55,733 nucleotides of DNA from Candidatus Latescibacterota bacterium (GCA_011772205.1 WVZY01000042.1:1-55733), one strand, 5' to 3'. Positions 1,111-7,847 are shown, numbered from the stretch's first letter. The notes: a model not told the origin generated them from the letters alone. Numbers and translations: made by a program.

Positions 1111-3096
1111 TCACAGCATCCTTGCAATCACCGGCGCAAACACGAGTGATACAACGGCCATGAGCTTTATAAGGATGTTCATCGAGGGGCCGGAAGTATC
1201 CTTGAACGGATCTCCAACGGTATCCCCTACAACGGCGGCCTTGTGGGCATCCGAACCTTTGCCCCCAAGATTTCCTTCCTCGATCCATTTTTTCCCGTTG
1301 TCCCAGGCGCCGCCGCCATTGGCCATGAACACGCCGAGTAGCACGCCCGTTGCTGTAGCTCCTGCGAGGAATCCCCCCAGCGCCTCAGGCCCCATGGCGA
1401 AGCCGACGATCAGGGGAGACGCGATGGCGAGAATACCCGGAGCAATCATCTCGCGAAGCGCTCCCTTGGTCACGATGTCGATACAAGTTTGGATCTCAGG
1501 GGATGCCGTCCCTTCGAGGAGCCCCTTGATCTCCCGGAACTGGCGGCGAATCTCCTGGACCATTTGATTCGCCGCACGACCCACCGCCTCCATGGTGAGC
1601 GCCGCGATGAAAAACGGCATCATTGCGCCCAGCATGAGGCCGATGATCGTGGTCGATTTCGTTAAGCTGATCGTTTGGAGGCCAACCGTGTTCTGGTATG
1701 CAGAGAAAAGCGCAAGAGCGGTGAGCGCGGCGCTTCCGATTGCAAAGCCCTTGCCCATCGCTGCTGTGGTGTTCCCGAGCGCATCGAGCTTGTCCGTGAT
1801 CTTACGGATCTCGGGACCGGCCCCGCTCATCTCGGCAATGCCGCCGGCATTGTCCGCGATGGGTCCATACGAGTCGGTGGACATCACGATGCCAATTGTG
1901 GAGAGCATCCCGACGCCCGAGAGAGCAATCCCATACAGCCCACTCATTTTGTAGGCGACGAAGATCGCAATACAGATCGTGATTACCGGCAGAATCGCGC
2001 TCTTGAATCCTACGGCAAGTCCCGTGATGACTGTTGTCGCCGGACCGGATTCCGAAGCCCTGGCGATAGTTTTGATCGGAGGCCCTGAGGTGAAGTATTC
2101 CGTCTCCAATCCGATGAGGACTCCGCAGAAAAGGCCGGCCAGGATCGCCCAGAATGCTCGCGTGTCGCCGATAAGGGAGTTCGTCGCTATGTACGATCCG
2201 ATGATAAATATGATACCGCTCACATAGGTCGCCGTGCGGAGGGCCGACTGCGGATTCATGCGTTTCAAAATGCCCATCGACCAGATGCCCAGCAGCGAAG
2301 CTATCAGGCCGATCGAGATGAGAACGAGTGGAAGCGCCATCTTTGGGATCGGATTCGCAAATGTGGCACCAATCGCAATGGTCGCCACTACCGAGCCCAC
2401 ATACGACTCGAACAGGTCAGCACCCATGCCCGCCGTATCCCCGACATTGTCGCCCACCAGGTCGGCGATCACGCCGGGATTTCTTGGATCATCTTCCGGG
2501 ATCCCCGCTTCTACTTTGCCCACCAGGTCCGCCCCCACATCGGCGCTTTTCGTATAGATGCCGCCACCCACACGGGCAAACAGCGCGATGCTCGACGCAC
2601 CCATCGCAAATCCATTGATCACCAGCGGCGCGTTTTGCGGATTATGTTTCGTGAAAAAGAAATAGATCGCGAGCCCCAGCACTCCCATTGACGCCACGCA
2701 CAATCCCATGACGGAGCCACCTTGGAAGGCGATTGCCAACGCACGGGGAGCTTCGCCGTCCTTCGCTCCCTGGCAGGCCCTTGGGCTCGTCCGAGTGGCC
2801 GCCTCCATGCCGAACCAGCCGGCAAGCATCGAACAAAGAGCCCCTGTAAGATAGGCGATGCCCGTCCAGATACTCAGAGCAAGACTCAAGGTAACGAAGA
2901 TCACCACCATGAAGATGGCGATGATCGAGTATTCGCGTTTCAAAAACACCATGGCGCCGAGATGGATCTTCTCGGCGATGTCGATCATCTTCTCGTTTCC
3001 CGCCGAGTAGCGTTTGATAGTGACGTATGTCAGCGCGGCAATGAGCAGACCGAACCCACCCAGCCACGGCATGATTGGGATCAACGTGTTGGACAT
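1111..3096 (-). CDS. hppA: membrane-bound ion-translocating pyrophosphatase, K+-dependent type
   Basis: This integral membrane enzyme hydrolyses pyrophosphate in the cytoplasm and pumps H+ or Na+ outward. The 661-residue length fits the family (about 660-770) with about 16 spans. The substrate-binding signatures are all present: DVGADLVGKVEAGIPEDDPR followed by GDNVGDTAGMGADLFESY near residues 180-235, and GDTVGDPFKDTSGPS near the C-terminus. At about residue 444 the sequence is GNTTAAMGKG; the first Ala after TT is the position whose Lys defines K+-independent enzymes, so this one should need K+. The K+-dependent class includes Na+ pumps and some H+ pumps, and the transported ion cannot be settled here. 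ATG start follows GGGAGGAGAGG. It appears monocistronic, with a promoter at 3193-3221 and a hairpin in the leader. Confidence 0.97.
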   Translation of the reverse strand: MSNTLIPIMPWLGGFGLLIAALTYVTIKRYSAGNEKMIDIAEKIHLGAMVFLKREYSIIAIFMVVIFVTLSLALSIWTGIAYLTGALCSMLAGWFGMEAATRTSPRACQGAKDGEAPRALAIAFQGGSVMGLCVASMGVLGLAIYFFFTKHNPQNAPLVINGFAMGASSIALFARVGGGIYTKSADVGADLVGKVEAGIPEDDPRNPGVIADLVGDNVGDTAGMGADLFESYVGSVVATIAIGATFANPIPKMALPLVLISIGLIASLLGIWSMGILKRMNPQSALRTATYVSGIIFIIGSYIATNSLIGDTRAFWAILAGLFCGVLIGLETEYFTSGPPIKTIARASESGPATTVITGLAVGFKSAILPVITICIAIFVAYKMSGLYGIALSGVGMLSTIGIVMSTDSYGPIADNAGGIAEMSGAGPEIRKITDKLDALGNTTAAMGKGFAIGSAALTALALFSAYQNTVGLQTISLTKSTTIIGLMLGAMMPFFIAALTMEAVGRAANQMVQEIRRQFREIKGLLEGTASPEIQTCIDIVTKGALREMIAPGILAIASPLIVGFAMGPEALGGFLAGATATGVLLGVFMANGGGAWDNGKKWIEEGNLGGKGSDAHKAAVVGDTVGDPFKDTSGPSMNILIKLMAVVSLVFAPVIARML

Positions 3097-3758: not shown

Positions 3759-4550
3759 GTGATAACAGACGCCAAATTACTAACCACAGGTCAGGCGGCC
3801 AAGTACTGTTCGGTCACGCCAGATACGATATTGAAGTGGATTCGATCAGGATTTCTCCCGGCCCACAGGACGGCTGGGGGGCACCATCGGATTGATGTGC
3901 GCGACCTGGACCAGGTATTGCGCCCGATCTCCTTGCCCCAGATCTCCCCGATCAAAACGGTTCTCAAACCCACGCCCCGGCAGCGACCTTTTAAATACTG
4001 CTGGGAATTCAACGGCGAGGGGGAGCTTCTCGAAGAATGCCAAAACTGCGCCGTCTATCAGATGCGCGCTCAGCGCTGCTACGAGGTAGTCAGGCTGGCG
4101 CCGGAAGCCGGCCCGCTGAAGCTCTGCTGCGACAGCAGCTGCCAGGACTGCGATTATTACCGTGTGGTGCACAAGCAAGGCGTCAACGTGCTGGTCGTGA
4201 GTGACGATGGACAATTGACCGAGGCGCTGCAAAAACAGGCCGAGGAGCACGAATACAATATCGAATTCACGGATTGCGAATACGCGTGTTCTGCTGCGAT
4301 CAGCAGCTTCCGTCCGGACTTTGCCGTTGTGGATTGCTCGCTTGGGTCCCAATTGAGCCAAGAGATTTGCCACCACTTGAATCAGGACCCCCGGATTCCG
4401 TTCGTGCGTGTGGTGCTGGCCGCCAGCGAAGGCGAGTTCCCTACTTCTTGTGAGAAGGACATTTTTGCGCGAATCCAGAGGCCCTTTAGCGTGCAAGACA
4501 TCGCGGACTGTATTGAGGGGGCTTCGAAGAAGACCTCCAATGAAGAGTAG
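3759..4550 (+). CDS. HTH / cysteine-cluster / receiver regulator of the dsr-like cluster
   Basis: A 263-residue three-part regulator. Residues 7-55 form a MerR/excisionase-type winged helix ('TTGQAAKYCSVTPDTILKWI' then 'HRTAGGHHRI'). Residues 80-134 hold eight cysteines at 81, 94, 97, 107, 123, 124, 128 and 131, spaced like a metal or Fe-S ligand set. Residues 142-255 are a receiver-like domain: acidic pair D149/D150 and the phospho-acceptor position D192 are kept, but the usual C-terminal Lys-Pro is Arg241-Pro242, so phosphorylation may be weak or absent. The start is GTG, 8 bases after GAGAGAGGA. It lies immediately upstream of and co-directional with the DsrC/DsrM/DsrK genes, which suggests it controls them in response to thiol, sulfide or redox state. 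The domain reading is firm; the signal is inferred. Confidence 0.8.
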   Translation: MITDAKLLTTGQAAKYCSVTPDTILKWIRSGFLPAHRTAGGHHRIDVRDLDQVLRPISLPQISPIKTVLKPTPRQRPFKYCWEFNGEGELLEECQNCAVYQMRAQRCYEVVRLAPEAGPLKLCCDSSCQDCDYYRVVHKQGVNVLVVSDDGQLTEALQKQAEEHEYNIEFTDCEYACSAAISSFRPDFAVVDCSLGSQLSQEICHHLNQDPRIPFVRVVLAASEGEFPTSCEKDIFARIQRPFSVQDIADCIEGASKKTSNEE

Positions 4551-4567
4551 GAGTTGACAGGTCTGGT

Positions 4568-4581
4568 CGTGGTGAACCACG
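4568..4581. promoter_or_regulatory. perfect-arm inverted repeat between regulator and dsrC-like gene
   Basis: CGTGGT-GA-ACCACG is a 6-bp-arm palindrome lying in the 115-base gap between the regulator stop and the DsrC start, nine bases after a TTGACA at 4554-4559. It may be an operator for the HTH regulator just upstream, or a small RNA hairpin. I saw no second copy in front of the regulator itself. Confidence 0.35.
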
Positions 4582-4665
4582 TCCGCATCTAAAACGAATG
4601 GATTGCCGGTCGAACACTGGCGATTCAGCCAAATGATCGCCTTCCTTTCTAACCATGGAGGAAAA

Positions 4666-5007
4666 ATGGATACCGACCAGTCATCAGCAGACCTTTTAAC
4701 AGCAGGTAAGCTGACAGAAGAGGAGCTGGATAACGACGGGTTCCTGCAGGAACTGTCCACCTGGACTAGGGATAAGGCCGTTGAGCTGGCCGAAAGAAAC
4801 GATCTCGGCCCTCTGACCGAAGAGCATTGGAAGGTCATCGAGTATGTGCAGGAGTATTTCCTCAAGAACGGTCATGGTCCGCCCATTGTCAAGATCGGCA
4901 AAGCCGTTGGCATGACTTCCAAGCAAATCTGTACCTTGTTCCCATGTGGTGTGGCGCGTGGCGCGTACCGCCTCGCCGGATTGCCCAGGCCGGATGGCTG
5001 TCTCTGA
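4666..5007 (+). CDS. DsrC/TusE-family sulfur carrier with only the penultimate cysteine (CysA)
   Basis: DsrC-family proteins carry sulfur on C-terminal cysteines and are substrates of the DsrMK membrane complex. This 113-residue product has the family core: 'GFLQELSTWTRDKAVELA', then 'LTEEHWKVIEYVQEYF', then the C-terminal arm 'GAYRLAGLPRPDGCL'. The penultimate residue C112 is the reactive CysA. The position 11 residues earlier, CysB in true DsrC, is Tyr101, so the classical intramolecular disulfide cannot form. Extra cysteines C89 and C94 precede the arm. The ATG at 4666 is chosen over an in-frame upstream start at 4603 because GGAGGAAAA sits directly before it and homology begins there. Translation of the DsrM-like gene begins 35 bases downstream. 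Confidence 0.88.
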   Translation: MDTDQSSADLLTAGKLTEEELDNDGFLQELSTWTRDKAVELAERNDLGPLTEEHWKVIEYVQEYFLKNGHGPPIVKIGKAVGMTSKQICTLFPCGVARGAYRLAGLPRPDGCL

Positions 5008-5042
5008 GAATAATCGCTGGATCAAAGATCAGGAGGATAGAC

Positions 5043-5744
5043 TTGAGTACTTTCGCCTTCATTGTGGGCGGCATCCTGCCCGGTATAGCCGTTGTGATTT
5101 TTATAGTCGGTATGGTCTACCGTTTAAGTGTATGGCTCAAAATCCCTCAGCCCGGTAGAATGACGCTATTCCCCGCCAGCGAGGGAACCACTAAGGCGGT
5201 GGTGGCTGAAGCTTTATTCTTTCCGAGCCTCTTTCGCGGGGACAGGGTGCTGTGGACTTTCGCCTGGGTGTTTCACGCCACCCTGGCTTTGGTCGCCTTG
5301 GGGCACATCCGGGTCATCACTGGTTTCGTGGACCGAGTATTGATGGCCATGGGCATGTCAGCTGAAGGCATCGCTACCATGTCGGGCACCGTAGGCGGAA
5401 TCGCTGGTGTCATCTTATTCGCAACGGGCACGTTGTTGTTGATCCGCAGGCTGACCATGCAGCGAGTTCGAGAGATTTCTGGGCTGCCTGATTTCTTCGC
5501 TCTGCTGCTCCTGATTGCCATTATTTTCACCGGCGACATGATGCGCTTCGGAGCTCATTTCGAGCTGGAGCAAACAAGAATTTGGGCCAGATCGCTGGTA
5601 ACCTTCTCGCCGCAGATCCCTCAGCATGGCATGTTTCTCACGCACGCACTTTTGGCTTTGTTGCTGATCATGTACATCCCCTTCTCCAAGATTCTCCACT
5701 TCGGTGGCATCTTCTTCACCCAAAGCCTGATCAAGAGGAGATAA
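5043..5744 (+). CDS. dsrM: DsrM-like (NarI-type) diheme cytochrome b membrane subunit
   Basis: A 233-residue protein with five predicted spans (about residues 7-30, 70-92, 115-135, 150-165 and 195-215). Histidines H78 and H88 are 10 apart and H201 and H219 are 18 apart, the same spacings as the four heme-b ligands of NarI (56/66 and 187/205), so two b hemes are expected. The family passes electrons between menaquinol and the cytoplasmic Fe-S subunit DsrK, whose gene starts 2 bases after this stop. The start is taken as TTG at 5043: AGGAGG (5031-5036) is ideally spaced, and the first span begins right after. Upstream in-frame ATG starts lie inside the preceding gene and would add unlike sequence. 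Electron direction (to DsrC or from it) is not shown by the sequence. Confidence 0.9.
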   Translation: MSTFAFIVGGILPGIAVVIFIVGMVYRLSVWLKIPQPGRMTLFPASEGTTKAVVAEALFFPSLFRGDRVLWTFAWVFHATLALVALGHIRVITGFVDRVLMAMGMSAEGIATMSGTVGGIAGVILFATGTLLLIRRLTMQRVREISGLPDFFALLLLIAIIFTGDMMRFGAHFELEQTRIWARSLVTFSPQIPQHGMFLTHALLALLLIMYIPFSKILHFGGIFFTQSLIKRR

Positions 5745-5746
5745 TA

Positions 5747-7099
5747 ATGAGTCGTCGAAAAAAGGTGGAAGACGCTATTACCGCCATCAATCAAGGACCG
5801 AAAGTTCTCAAGCTTTATATGGAGATGTGCGCCAGGTGCGGAACCTGTGCCTCCCAATGCCCGGTTTACTATGCCAAGCCGGAGAAGGATATCAATCCCG
5901 TTATTCGGTCGGACCTCATTCGCGCAATTTATAAAAAGCTCAGCACAACTTCCGGCAAGCTAATGGGTGAATTGGTGGGCGCCCGCGATTTCAGCGAAGA
6001 CGATTTTGAGAAGTGGGCGGAAGACTTCTATGAGTGCACGGGCTGCCGCAGGTGCGCCACCTATTGCCCTTTCGGCATAGACAATTCGGTCATCACACGC
6101 AAAGGACGTGCGATCCTGCACGAGTTGGGACTGACGCCCGCGGTCATGCAGAGGGTAGTCGACATATCGCTCGAGACCGGTAACACAGACGGTGCTTCGC
6201 CAAAGGCATTCATGGCGGCCATCGAATTTCTCGAAGAGGAAATGAAAGAAGAGCACGGGATCGACATAAAGATCCCGGTCGATGTGGAAGGGGCCACATA
6301 CTTCTACGTACCGCCTTCCGGTGACGTGCTGGTCAATCCAGAGGCCACGACGGGTATCGCAAAGGTCTTCCATGTGCTCGGTATGGCTGATCAATGGACG
6401 ATGAGTTCCAAGTGCTTCGACGGCGCCAACTACGGGCTGTTCACCGGCGATGACGCGTCCATGAAGGCCGACAACAAGCTGTATGTAGACGAAGCCAAGC
6501 GTCTGGGCGCGAAAGTTATGCTGATGGGTGAATGCGGGCATGCCTACCGCATCATGAAGATGATGATGGAGCCCGCGAAATGGTGGGGAGATCTTCCTTT
6601 CGAGATTACCAACTGCTTGCAGTGGACAGCCATTCATATCAAGGCCGGCCGGCTCCAATTCGACAAAACCATGAATCCCATGCCGGTCACCTATCACGAT
6701 CCCTGCAATTTCGGTCGCTCTTGCGGCATCGTAGATGAACCGCGCATCATTCTCGAGGCTAGCTGCCTGGATTTCAGAGAGATGTATCCCAACCGCGGTG
6801 ACAACTGGTGCTGCGGTGGTGGCGGAGGCCTGTCGGCCATGGACACCATCCTTGATTTCCGGATGGAGATCACTGGCAAGAAAAAGATGGAGCAGATCCG
6901 GGCCACAGGTGCCAAATATGTCGCAGCGGCCTGCTCCAACTGCAAACGGCAACTGATCCAATTGATGGAGTATCACAATGAAGACATTGTCGTCGGCGGT
7001 GTGCACGACATGCTATCACGTGCTATCCTCATCAATGGCAAAGCAGCCCAACGCATTGACTACGAAAGCGGAGTTGCCGTAGAGAGCGAATCTGGATAA
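5747..7099 (+). CDS. dsrK: DsrK-like / HdrD-like iron-sulfur subunit
   Basis: This 450-residue cytoplasmic subunit carries two ferredoxin-type clusters, C28-x2-C31-x2-C34-x3-C38 ('CARCGTCASQCPVY') and C97-x2-C100-x2-C103-x3-C107 ('CTGCRRCATYCPFG'). A C-terminal CCG domain follows: HDPCNFGRSCG near residue 320, WCCGGGGG near 355 and CSNCKRQL near 396. In DsrK and HdrD this domain binds the special 4Fe-4S centre that reduces or oxidises a disulfide. Together with the DsrM-like subunit it should form a quinone/disulfide oxidoreductase acting on DsrC proteins encoded on both sides. ATG start follows AAGAGGAG. Length is somewhat below the roughly 550 residues of sulfate-reducer DsrK, as in other stand-alone DsrMK pairs. 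Confidence 0.92.
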   Translation: MSRRKKVEDAITAINQGPKVLKLYMEMCARCGTCASQCPVYYAKPEKDINPVIRSDLIRAIYKKLSTTSGKLMGELVGARDFSEDDFEKWAEDFYECTGCRRCATYCPFGIDNSVITRKGRAILHELGLTPAVMQRVVDISLETGNTDGASPKAFMAAIEFLEEEMKEEHGIDIKIPVDVEGATYFYVPPSGDVLVNPEATTGIAKVFHVLGMADQWTMSSKCFDGANYGLFTGDDASMKADNKLYVDEAKRLGAKVMLMGECGHAYRIMKMMMEPAKWWGDLPFEITNCLQWTAIHIKAGRLQFDKTMNPMPVTYHDPCNFGRSCGIVDEPRIILEASCLDFREMYPNRGDNWCCGGGGGLSAMDTILDFRMEITGKKKMEQIRATGAKYVAAACSNCKRQLIQLMEYHNEDIVVGGVHDMLSRAILINGKAAQRIDYESGVAVESESG

Positions 7100-7130
7100 T
7101 ATCTTTTCAAATTGAATATCCTTCGTGTCT

Positions 7131-7169
7131 CGCTGCGAAGCACGTGCCGTGGAGTTGCAGATCGCAGCG
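7131..7169. repeat. 8-bp inverted repeat between dsrK and the tandem dsrC
   Basis: CGCTGCGA (7131-7138) and TCGCAGCG (7162-7169) are perfect reverse complements with a 23-base loop, in the 88-base gap before the tandem DsrC gene. No T-run follows, so it is not a standard terminator. It may be an intercistronic RNA hairpin that sets the relative expression of the last gene. Confidence 0.4.
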
Positions 7170-7187
7170 TGAATTCATATAGAAAGT

Positions 7188-7847
7188 GTGGACATGGAAC
7201 CCAAGAGCATCGAATTCGGAGGCAAGGACTATACTCTCGATGAACATGGCTTTCTCGATCCGCCGGAGCAGTGGGACGAGACGTTCGCCGAGGGTATGGC
7301 CCGGATGCAGGGCATCTTCGATGGACTGACCGGCGAACATTGGAGCTTCATCCACTACCTCCGAAGGAAATTCTTGGAGGAGCATACGGTGCCCGTCGTT
7401 GTGCTGGCCTGTGCCGACAACAACATCAGGCTCAATAAACTCAAACAGCTGTTCCCCACTGGATACCACCGGGGTGCGTGCAGGATTGCCGGCATCAACT
7501 ACGAGTTCATGTACGAGAGCAATATCTGGCTGACCTACGAGAGCCATGGCGTACTTAGCCCCGAACAGAAATTGACACAAGCCGGCTTCCTTGAAGACTT
7601 CGAACAATGGGATGAGCGCTTCGCGCATCTTGTGGCGCGCGAATGGAACTTGACGCACGGATTGACAGACCGGCACTGGGAGGTCATCAACTACTTGCGG
7701 GATTTCTACCGCGTCCACAAGAACATTCCCACTGTCTATGAAACATGCCAAGCGAACCATCTCACTCTTGATGAGCTCCGCTCGTTGTTCCCCGCGGGTT
7801 ACCGGCGGGGGGCCTGCCGGGCCGCGGGACTGCCCTTTTTCGGCTGA
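7188..7847 (+). CDS. tandem (double) DsrC-like protein with only CysB in each half
   Basis: The 219-residue product contains two complete DsrC folds in tandem. Half one (about residues 8-109) has 'GFLDPPEQWDETFAEGMARM', 'LTGEHWSFIHYLRR' and 'GACRIAGI'. Half two (about residues 130-219) has 'GFLEDFEQWDERFAHLVA', 'LTDRHWEVINYLRD' and 'GACRAAGLPFFG'. CysB is present in both (C98 and C210). CysA, expected 11 residues later, is Tyr109 in half one and lies beyond the end of the protein in half two, which stops at residue 219. Internal cysteines C75 and C187 also occur. A GTG at 7188 and an ATG at 7194 are both possible starts; neither has a strong ribosome binding site. The pattern is the exact complement of the single DsrC upstream. 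Fold assignment is firm; function is inferred. Confidence 0.85.
   Translation: MDMEPKSIEFGGKDYTLDEHGFLDPPEQWDETFAEGMARMQGIFDGLTGEHWSFIHYLRRKFLEEHTVPVVVLACADNNIRLNKLKQLFPTGYHRGACRIAGINYEFMYESNIWLTYESHGVLSPEQKLTQAGFLEDFEQWDERFAHLVAREWNLTHGLTDRHWEVINYLRDFYRVHKNIPTVYETCQANHLTLDELRSLFPAGYRRGACRAAGLPFFG

Follow-up and report, generated by a model that had tools for sequence, protein, structure and literature searches.

What becomes of the DsrC switch when its two cysteines are found in two different proteins? Dissimilatory sulfur metabolism is considered to turn on the two-cysteine arm of DsrC as its central switch. In one characterised DsrC, CysA is the sulfur-binding residue, and the bound sulfur is believed to be resolved by CysB through a disulfide (PMC3397948). 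The question is raised by a locus on the + strand of a 55,733-nucleotide stretch of DNA from a Candidatus Latescibacterota bacterium (GCA_011772205.1 WVZY01000042.1:1-55733; hereafter the window, its genome being labelled G000). Here, genes for a regulator (REG), a single-domain DsrC-like protein (S), a DsrM-like protein, a DsrK-like protein and a tandem DsrC-like protein (T) follow one another in that order (3759-7847). The original prediction held that S and T have lost complementary cysteines and that the remaining thiols work in trans. We find that the loss is conserved in every orthologue, and that S carries two further cysteines of its own.

Cysteines of the two DsrC-like proteins

Both proteins belong to the DsrC superfamily by profile and by fold. 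S matches PF04358 with 91 bits (E 7e-26) and TIGR03342 above its cut-off. Its AlphaFold2 (AF2) model has a predicted local distance difference test score (pLDDT) of 82.8, with low confidence at the arm end, and its best Foldseek matches are the DsrC structures 3or2_C and 2v4j_C. T has two DsrC domains in one chain, with PF04358 matched in two stretches (E 1e-41, 142 bits) and TIGR03342 again above cut-off; its AF2 model (pLDDT 83.0, predicted template modelling score, pTM, 0.51) shows DsrC folds by Foldseek. Orthologues of S come from ten genomes and tandems from eleven, with 13 carriers in all. Because these sequences are few and mostly from draft genomes, absences are weak evidence. The two genes and the positions at issue in them are as follows.

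4666..5007, + strand: S, single-domain DsrC-like protein of 113 residues (PF04358, 91 bits)
4930..4932, + strand: Cys89 codon of S, a new invariant cysteine (10/10 S); Tyr or Phe there in canonical DsrC
4945..4947, + strand: Cys94 codon of S, a new invariant cysteine in LFPCG (10/10 S)
4966..4968, + strand: Tyr101 codon of S, at the CysB position, invariant (10/10 S)
4999..5001, + strand: Cys112 codon of S (CysA), invariant (10/10 S)
7188..7847, + strand: T, tandem DsrC-like protein of 219 residues, GTG start (ATG at 7194 possible); PF04358 twice, 142 bits
7410..7412, + strand: Cys75 codon of T (helix cysteine, half 1), invariant in the eight tandems with S and present in the three without S
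7479..7481, + strand: Cys98 codon of T (CysB, half 1), in 11/11 tandems
7485..7541, + strand: conserved linker AGIN(Y/F/H)xFM...NxWxTYE of T, replacing the half-1 CysA arm
7746..7748, + strand: Cys187 codon of T (helix cysteine, half 2), in 7/8 tandems with S; Ile in G076
7815..7817, + strand: Cys210 codon of T (CysB, half 2), in 8/8 tandems with S; Val in the three without S

The coordinates, reading frames and arm cysteines of S and T are as originally predicted. In S, the penultimate C112 occupies the CysA position and Y101 the CysB position. The statement that S keeps only CysA is right for the arm, but it overlooked C89 and C94, which form the motif I-C-x-x-F-P-C-G. These two residues are absent from every other DsrC relative examined and are additions specific to S. 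Apart from one extra cysteine in G076, the ten S sequences contain no cysteines other than C89, C94 and C112.

T has C98 and C210 at its two CysB positions, while Y109 stands at the CysA position of the first half and the stop codon removes the arm end of the second. T had been described as keeping only CysB in each half; C98, C210 and the loss of CysA were read correctly, but C75 and C187 were missed. Both of these residues coincide in position with the helix cysteine of canonical DsrC in these genomes (LCKxTG). Residues A101, G102, I103, N104, F107, M108, N112, W114, T116, Y117 and E118 of the linker are invariant. The C-terminus reads AGLPF plus two residues in seven of the eight orthologues, G081 having a different, cysteine-free tail, and CysA is present in none. 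This matching end rules out an assembly frameshift as the cause of the truncated T.

Canonical DsrC, by which we mean a protein with CysA and CysB in one C-terminal arm, has three conserved cysteines in these genomes: the helix cysteine, CysB and CysA. T holds two of the three, since C75 and C187 occupy the canonical helix position, and S holds the third. CysB is missing from S, and CysA from both halves of T, in all orthologues; neither protein is a canonical DsrC, and no orthologue of either combines the two arm cysteines. The complementary loss first proposed is thus borne out.

This exact partition of the ancestral cysteines favours a reading in which C112 of S and C98 or C210 of T would form a mixed disulfide or trisulfide, reduced by the HdrD-like DsrK, as a protein version of the heterodisulfide of coenzymes M and B (CoM-S-S-CoB). 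The invariant extra cysteines of S speak against it and, together with the distribution described below, lead us to consider it rather unlikely.

Nor is S a plain TusE, the CysA-bearing protein of the tRNA 2-thiouridine sulfur relay. We took TusE to be defined by CysA only, with CysB replaced by Ala, Ser or Thr, in an organism without DsrAB (PMC3397948). S has CysA without CysB in common with TusE, but differs in having Tyr at CysB, C89 and C94, dsrMK neighbours and carriers with DsrAB, and it scores 51.5 bits against the TusE equivalog NF008562 (cut-off 191). Tyr101, C89/C94 and the gene context rule out a plain TusE. The published rule is that organisms with DsrAB have CysB and that those lacking DsrAB almost always have Ala, Ser or Thr in its place (PMC3397948); S, with Tyr at CysB in DsrAB-bearing genomes, falls outside it.

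In a tree of 81 sequences, S is recovered as a single clade (100/100) and every tandem half lies on the same side of one branch (100/99), so that S and the tandem may each have arisen once. The finer detail of this tree is of limited use, as alignment columns are few and branches long. For both proteins, nonsynonymous divergence (dN) is 0.12-0.30 and synonymous divergence (dS) is at least 1.2, mostly near saturation. This contrast indicates purifying selection, by which both proteins are maintained, and rules out pseudogenes. S and T each lack an arm cysteine of ordinary DsrC, as they would if these were degenerate paralogues losing cysteines by drift on their way out. We regard this as very improbable given the same dN and dS values, the repetition of the pattern in ten S and eleven tandem sequences from several phylum groups, and the gain and retention of new cysteines in S.

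The DsrMK-like pair, its regulator and the host

Between and before the two DsrC-like genes lie the remaining members of the locus.

3759..4550, + strand: REG, regulator gene (Pfam match and recurrence upstream of S)
5043..5744, + strand: DsrM-like haem b membrane subunit of 233 residues, TTG start (NF038037, Nitrate_red_gam)
5747..7099, + strand: DsrK-like Fe-S/CCG subunit of 450 residues (NF045796, CCG domain)

The DsrM-like protein scores 105 bits against NF038037 (cut-off 300) and 67 bits against Nitrate_red_gam, and the DsrK-like protein, in which the CCG domain is present, scores 342 bits against NF045796 (cut-off 400). The DsrM and DsrK equivalogs are the best matches of the pair; as both scores fall under their cut-offs, it is by sequence a divergent DsrMK-like pair. 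The four histidines of the DsrM-like protein, with HxxxxxxxxxH and H(17)H spacing, are common to nine orthologues and the canonical DsrM of the genome. The DsrK-like protein conserves CNxGRSC...CCGGG...CSNC with a complete CCG motif, and its terminal CxxC is missing from the standard DsrK of G000. Judged by these motifs, the pair can carry electrons to a disulfide through a pair of haems b and an Fe-S site of the CCG type.

DsrMK is homologous to HdrDE of methanogens, the CoM-S-S-CoB reductase. The complete CCG motif of the window's DsrK-like protein is the point of likeness to HdrDE; the difference is that the substrate would be protein thiols, in a putative mixed protein disulfide. Such an S-T protein heterodisulfide would amount to a DsrC redox unit split in two proteins and reduced or oxidised by a dedicated DsrMK, a protein counterpart of the CoM/CoB heterodisulfide. 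We hold this to be unlikely.

REG combines a MerR-type helix-turn-helix domain (Pfam HTH_17, 9e-12) with a receiver-like C-terminus (Response_reg, 6e-5, below its cut-off). Its middle part is rich in cysteine (CWE...C..C...C...C...C..C), and C81, C94, C97, C107, C124, C128 and C131 are invariant in 12 aligned sequences. Relatives of REG are found upstream of S in all ten loci and upstream of T in some. Regulator genes nearby and the lack of a full cysteine pair are also points of likeness to RspA, a group of DsrC-superfamily proteins that Venceslau et al., in 2014, reportedly proposed to be regulatory and not to need their conserved cysteines. In contrast, S and T keep theirs.

The locus stands beside an ordinary Dsr pathway. 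Contig C73 of G000 holds a two-cysteine DsrC, which by reading adjoins Apr/Qmo-like genes, as well as DsrAB and a DsrK above cut-off. All eight genomes with both S and T have a two-cysteine DsrC, as do 12 of the 13 carriers overall. The dsrA profile is likewise matched in 12 of 13, in 11 of them over the cut-off; the match is weak in G076 and absent in G077, a genome that is 65% complete. In G1241, only S and a TusE-type second DsrC copy were found, yet DsrA is present. Because the carriers have the ordinary Dsr pathway too, S and T are accessory paralogues. Contig C73 also bears, at L067:11039-13138, a further M/K-like pair, which resembles an HmcEF-like pair found beside T in another genome (locus L007) and has no DsrC gene seen alongside. 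In the window itself, a long open reading frame on the - strand (1111-3096) looks, by reading only, like a membrane-bound ion-pumping pyrophosphatase.

Carriers and gene neighbourhoods

Our searches covered up to 400 genomes per phylum, with phyla such as Desulfobacterota outside their reach, and the genome-contig scan, which required exact 8-residue matches, missed several carriers found later. Within this scope the two-CysB tandem is rare, occurring in eight genomes of four phylum groups. In the window's phylum it is carried by 4 genomes out of 80, all of them members of the window's family. The phyla of a Gemmatimonadota, a Myxococcota and an Elusimicrobia record gave 2 of 395, 1 of 379 and 1 of 295 genomes, respectively. 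The named records are metagenome-assembled genomes whose titles may reflect binning, and the Elusimicrobia case is alone in its phylum sample. None of the carriers found comes from culture. S-level scores in the Gemmatimonadota sample were confined to the two genomes that bear T. In the phylum centred on an Aminicenantes record, 2 of the 396 genomes have S, and T-like tandems are seen in three others. Scans of IMG/VR found no S or T in viruses, and our searches of open-access literature gave no description of a tandem or S-type DsrC, most subscription papers being outside this coverage.

All eight genomes with a two-CysB T also have S. The CysB of half 1 is present in all eleven tandems, whereas that of half 2 is present in the eight that accompany S and in none of the three that do not. 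Both the constant company of S and the loss of the second CysB in S-less genomes favour trans chemistry. However, no T was detected in G1315 and G1241, which have S, and T-like tandems stand without S in G1481, G1156 and G1264; these cases count against it. These five genomes also weaken a strict one-to-one dependence of S and T, within the limits of draft-genome absences. Given such unpaired occurrences and the extra cysteines of S, an obligatory relay between two partners is not supported, and the originally envisaged stoichiometry of one T to two S found no support.

The order regulator-S-dsrM-dsrK is present in nine of the ten S loci; in two of the nine, dsrK is incomplete, running into the contig end in G1315 and into masked sequence in G076. 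In the tenth locus, that of G1241, there is no dsrMK beside regulator and S; the two genes overlap there by 4 bases (L169:1468-1471), which suggests translational coupling. In G076, dsrK seems split between two distant places (L062 and L063), both ends lying at masked N runs, and this is probably an assembly or masking effect. Because both ends meet masked N, the split is unusable as an example of natural separation of S and T.

The position of T varies. It lies after dsrK in G000, G077 and G080, and after an Rrf2 gene that follows dsrK in G075 and likewise, in pieces, in G076. In G281 and G082 it is oriented divergently from S and has a regulator to itself. The arrangement seen in the window thus recurs in further genomes, T lying beside dsrMK in most loci, and this is a further argument for trans thiols. 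Against it, T adjoins a different, HmcEF-like pair in G081 and G082. An HmcF/DsrK-like CCG protein with a C-terminal response-regulator receiver is encoded beside T at L007:7913-9691 and L006:4218-5933; the receiver is a Pfam match in L007, and the L006 match spans the same stretch. The window's own M/K pair differs from HmcEF/TmcBC in scoring best as DsrM/DsrK, and we know of no T-like protein in Hmc or Tmc systems.

An Rrf2 gene lies next to two of the three tandems without S. One of the two tandems is fused to another enzyme: in G1156, L172:742-2610 encodes a cysteine desulfurase (TIGR01977 above cut-off) with the tandem DsrC at its C-terminus. The Rrf2 gene precedes this fusion gene, which is followed by genes for a Fer4/NrfD protein and for a molybdopterin oxidoreductase with thiosulfate reductase PhsA among its best NCBIfam matches.

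Such neighbours bear on another explanation, in which S would be a TusE-like persulfide carrier where CysA alone matters, and T would be a regulatory sulfur or thiol sensor for the adjacent regulators, with no shared catalytic disulfide between them. CysA-only TusE-type relatives of DsrC are common (PMC3397948), and a cysteine-rich helix-turn-helix regulator precedes every S, while most T loci have a regulator of this kind or an Rrf2 gene close by. The regulator/S overlap away from dsrMK in G1241 and the desulfurase fusion in G1156 also agree with this explanation. It fits poorly with the tie between S and dsrMK in 9/10 loci, with a CysB residue that is Tyr and not the Ala, Ser or Thr of TusE, and with C89/C94, which are foreign to TusE. 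Taken together, we judge it improbable.

Possible internal closure in S or relay through T

The reading that we favour, with a probability of roughly 0.4, is an accessory DsrMK module whose carrier, S, has been rewired: S would resolve C112 internally and T would serve as partner or sensor/adaptor. The host would be a sulfur-dissimilating bacterium with the standard Dsr pathway plus this module. In line with proposals for standard DsrMK, the DsrMK of this module would transfer electrons between the quinone pool and a disulfide or trisulfide on a protein, and C112 on the flexible arm of S would present sulfur or a disulfide to DsrK. S would most likely close a disulfide internally, C112 with C94 or C89, because CysB became Tyr while C94 and C89 appeared nearby in the sequence. 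T, without a CysA arm, would take part in that redox circuit as a thiol partner or as a sensor/adaptor, and not as an essential half of the catalytic disulfide.

Strict conservation of C89, C94 and C112 in S, the looser linkage of T and the existence of S without T all favour the internal route. The same is suggested by a conserved core of regulator, S, dsrM and dsrK, whereas the location of T shifts. The complete CCG motif with its terminal CxxC, the haem-type histidines, the DsrC fold of S with its low-confidence arm end, the purifying selection on S and T, and the sulfur-binding role of CysA (PMC3397948) also agree with the reading that we favour. Several observations weigh against internal closure. 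T retains exactly what S lost and, where it has two CysB, is always accompanied by S, both of which fit trans chemistry. The genomes with S and no T are of unstated completeness, and the G1315 contig stops inside dsrK, just where T would come next. C89 and C94 could also serve otherwise, for example in metal binding. On balance, we rate the self-contained S route as somewhat more probable than the trans route via T.

Among the closest known systems is canonical DsrC (DsvC) with DsrMK(JOP). Shared are the DsrC fold, the penultimate CysA in S, CysB and the helix cysteine in T, and the M/K neighbours. What differs is that neither S nor T has both arm cysteines, S has two new ones, and T is a tandem without CysA. 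The conserved S/T/DsrMK system suggests a new version of DsrC/DsrMK sulfur chemistry. If the cysteines are truly shared between two proteins and joined by new ones, beside a DsrMK of their own, then the DsrC switch can be rebuilt. The system would provide a natural experiment on the thiols that DsrK requires, and on whether a disulfide joining two proteins can serve an Hdr-type site as substrate.

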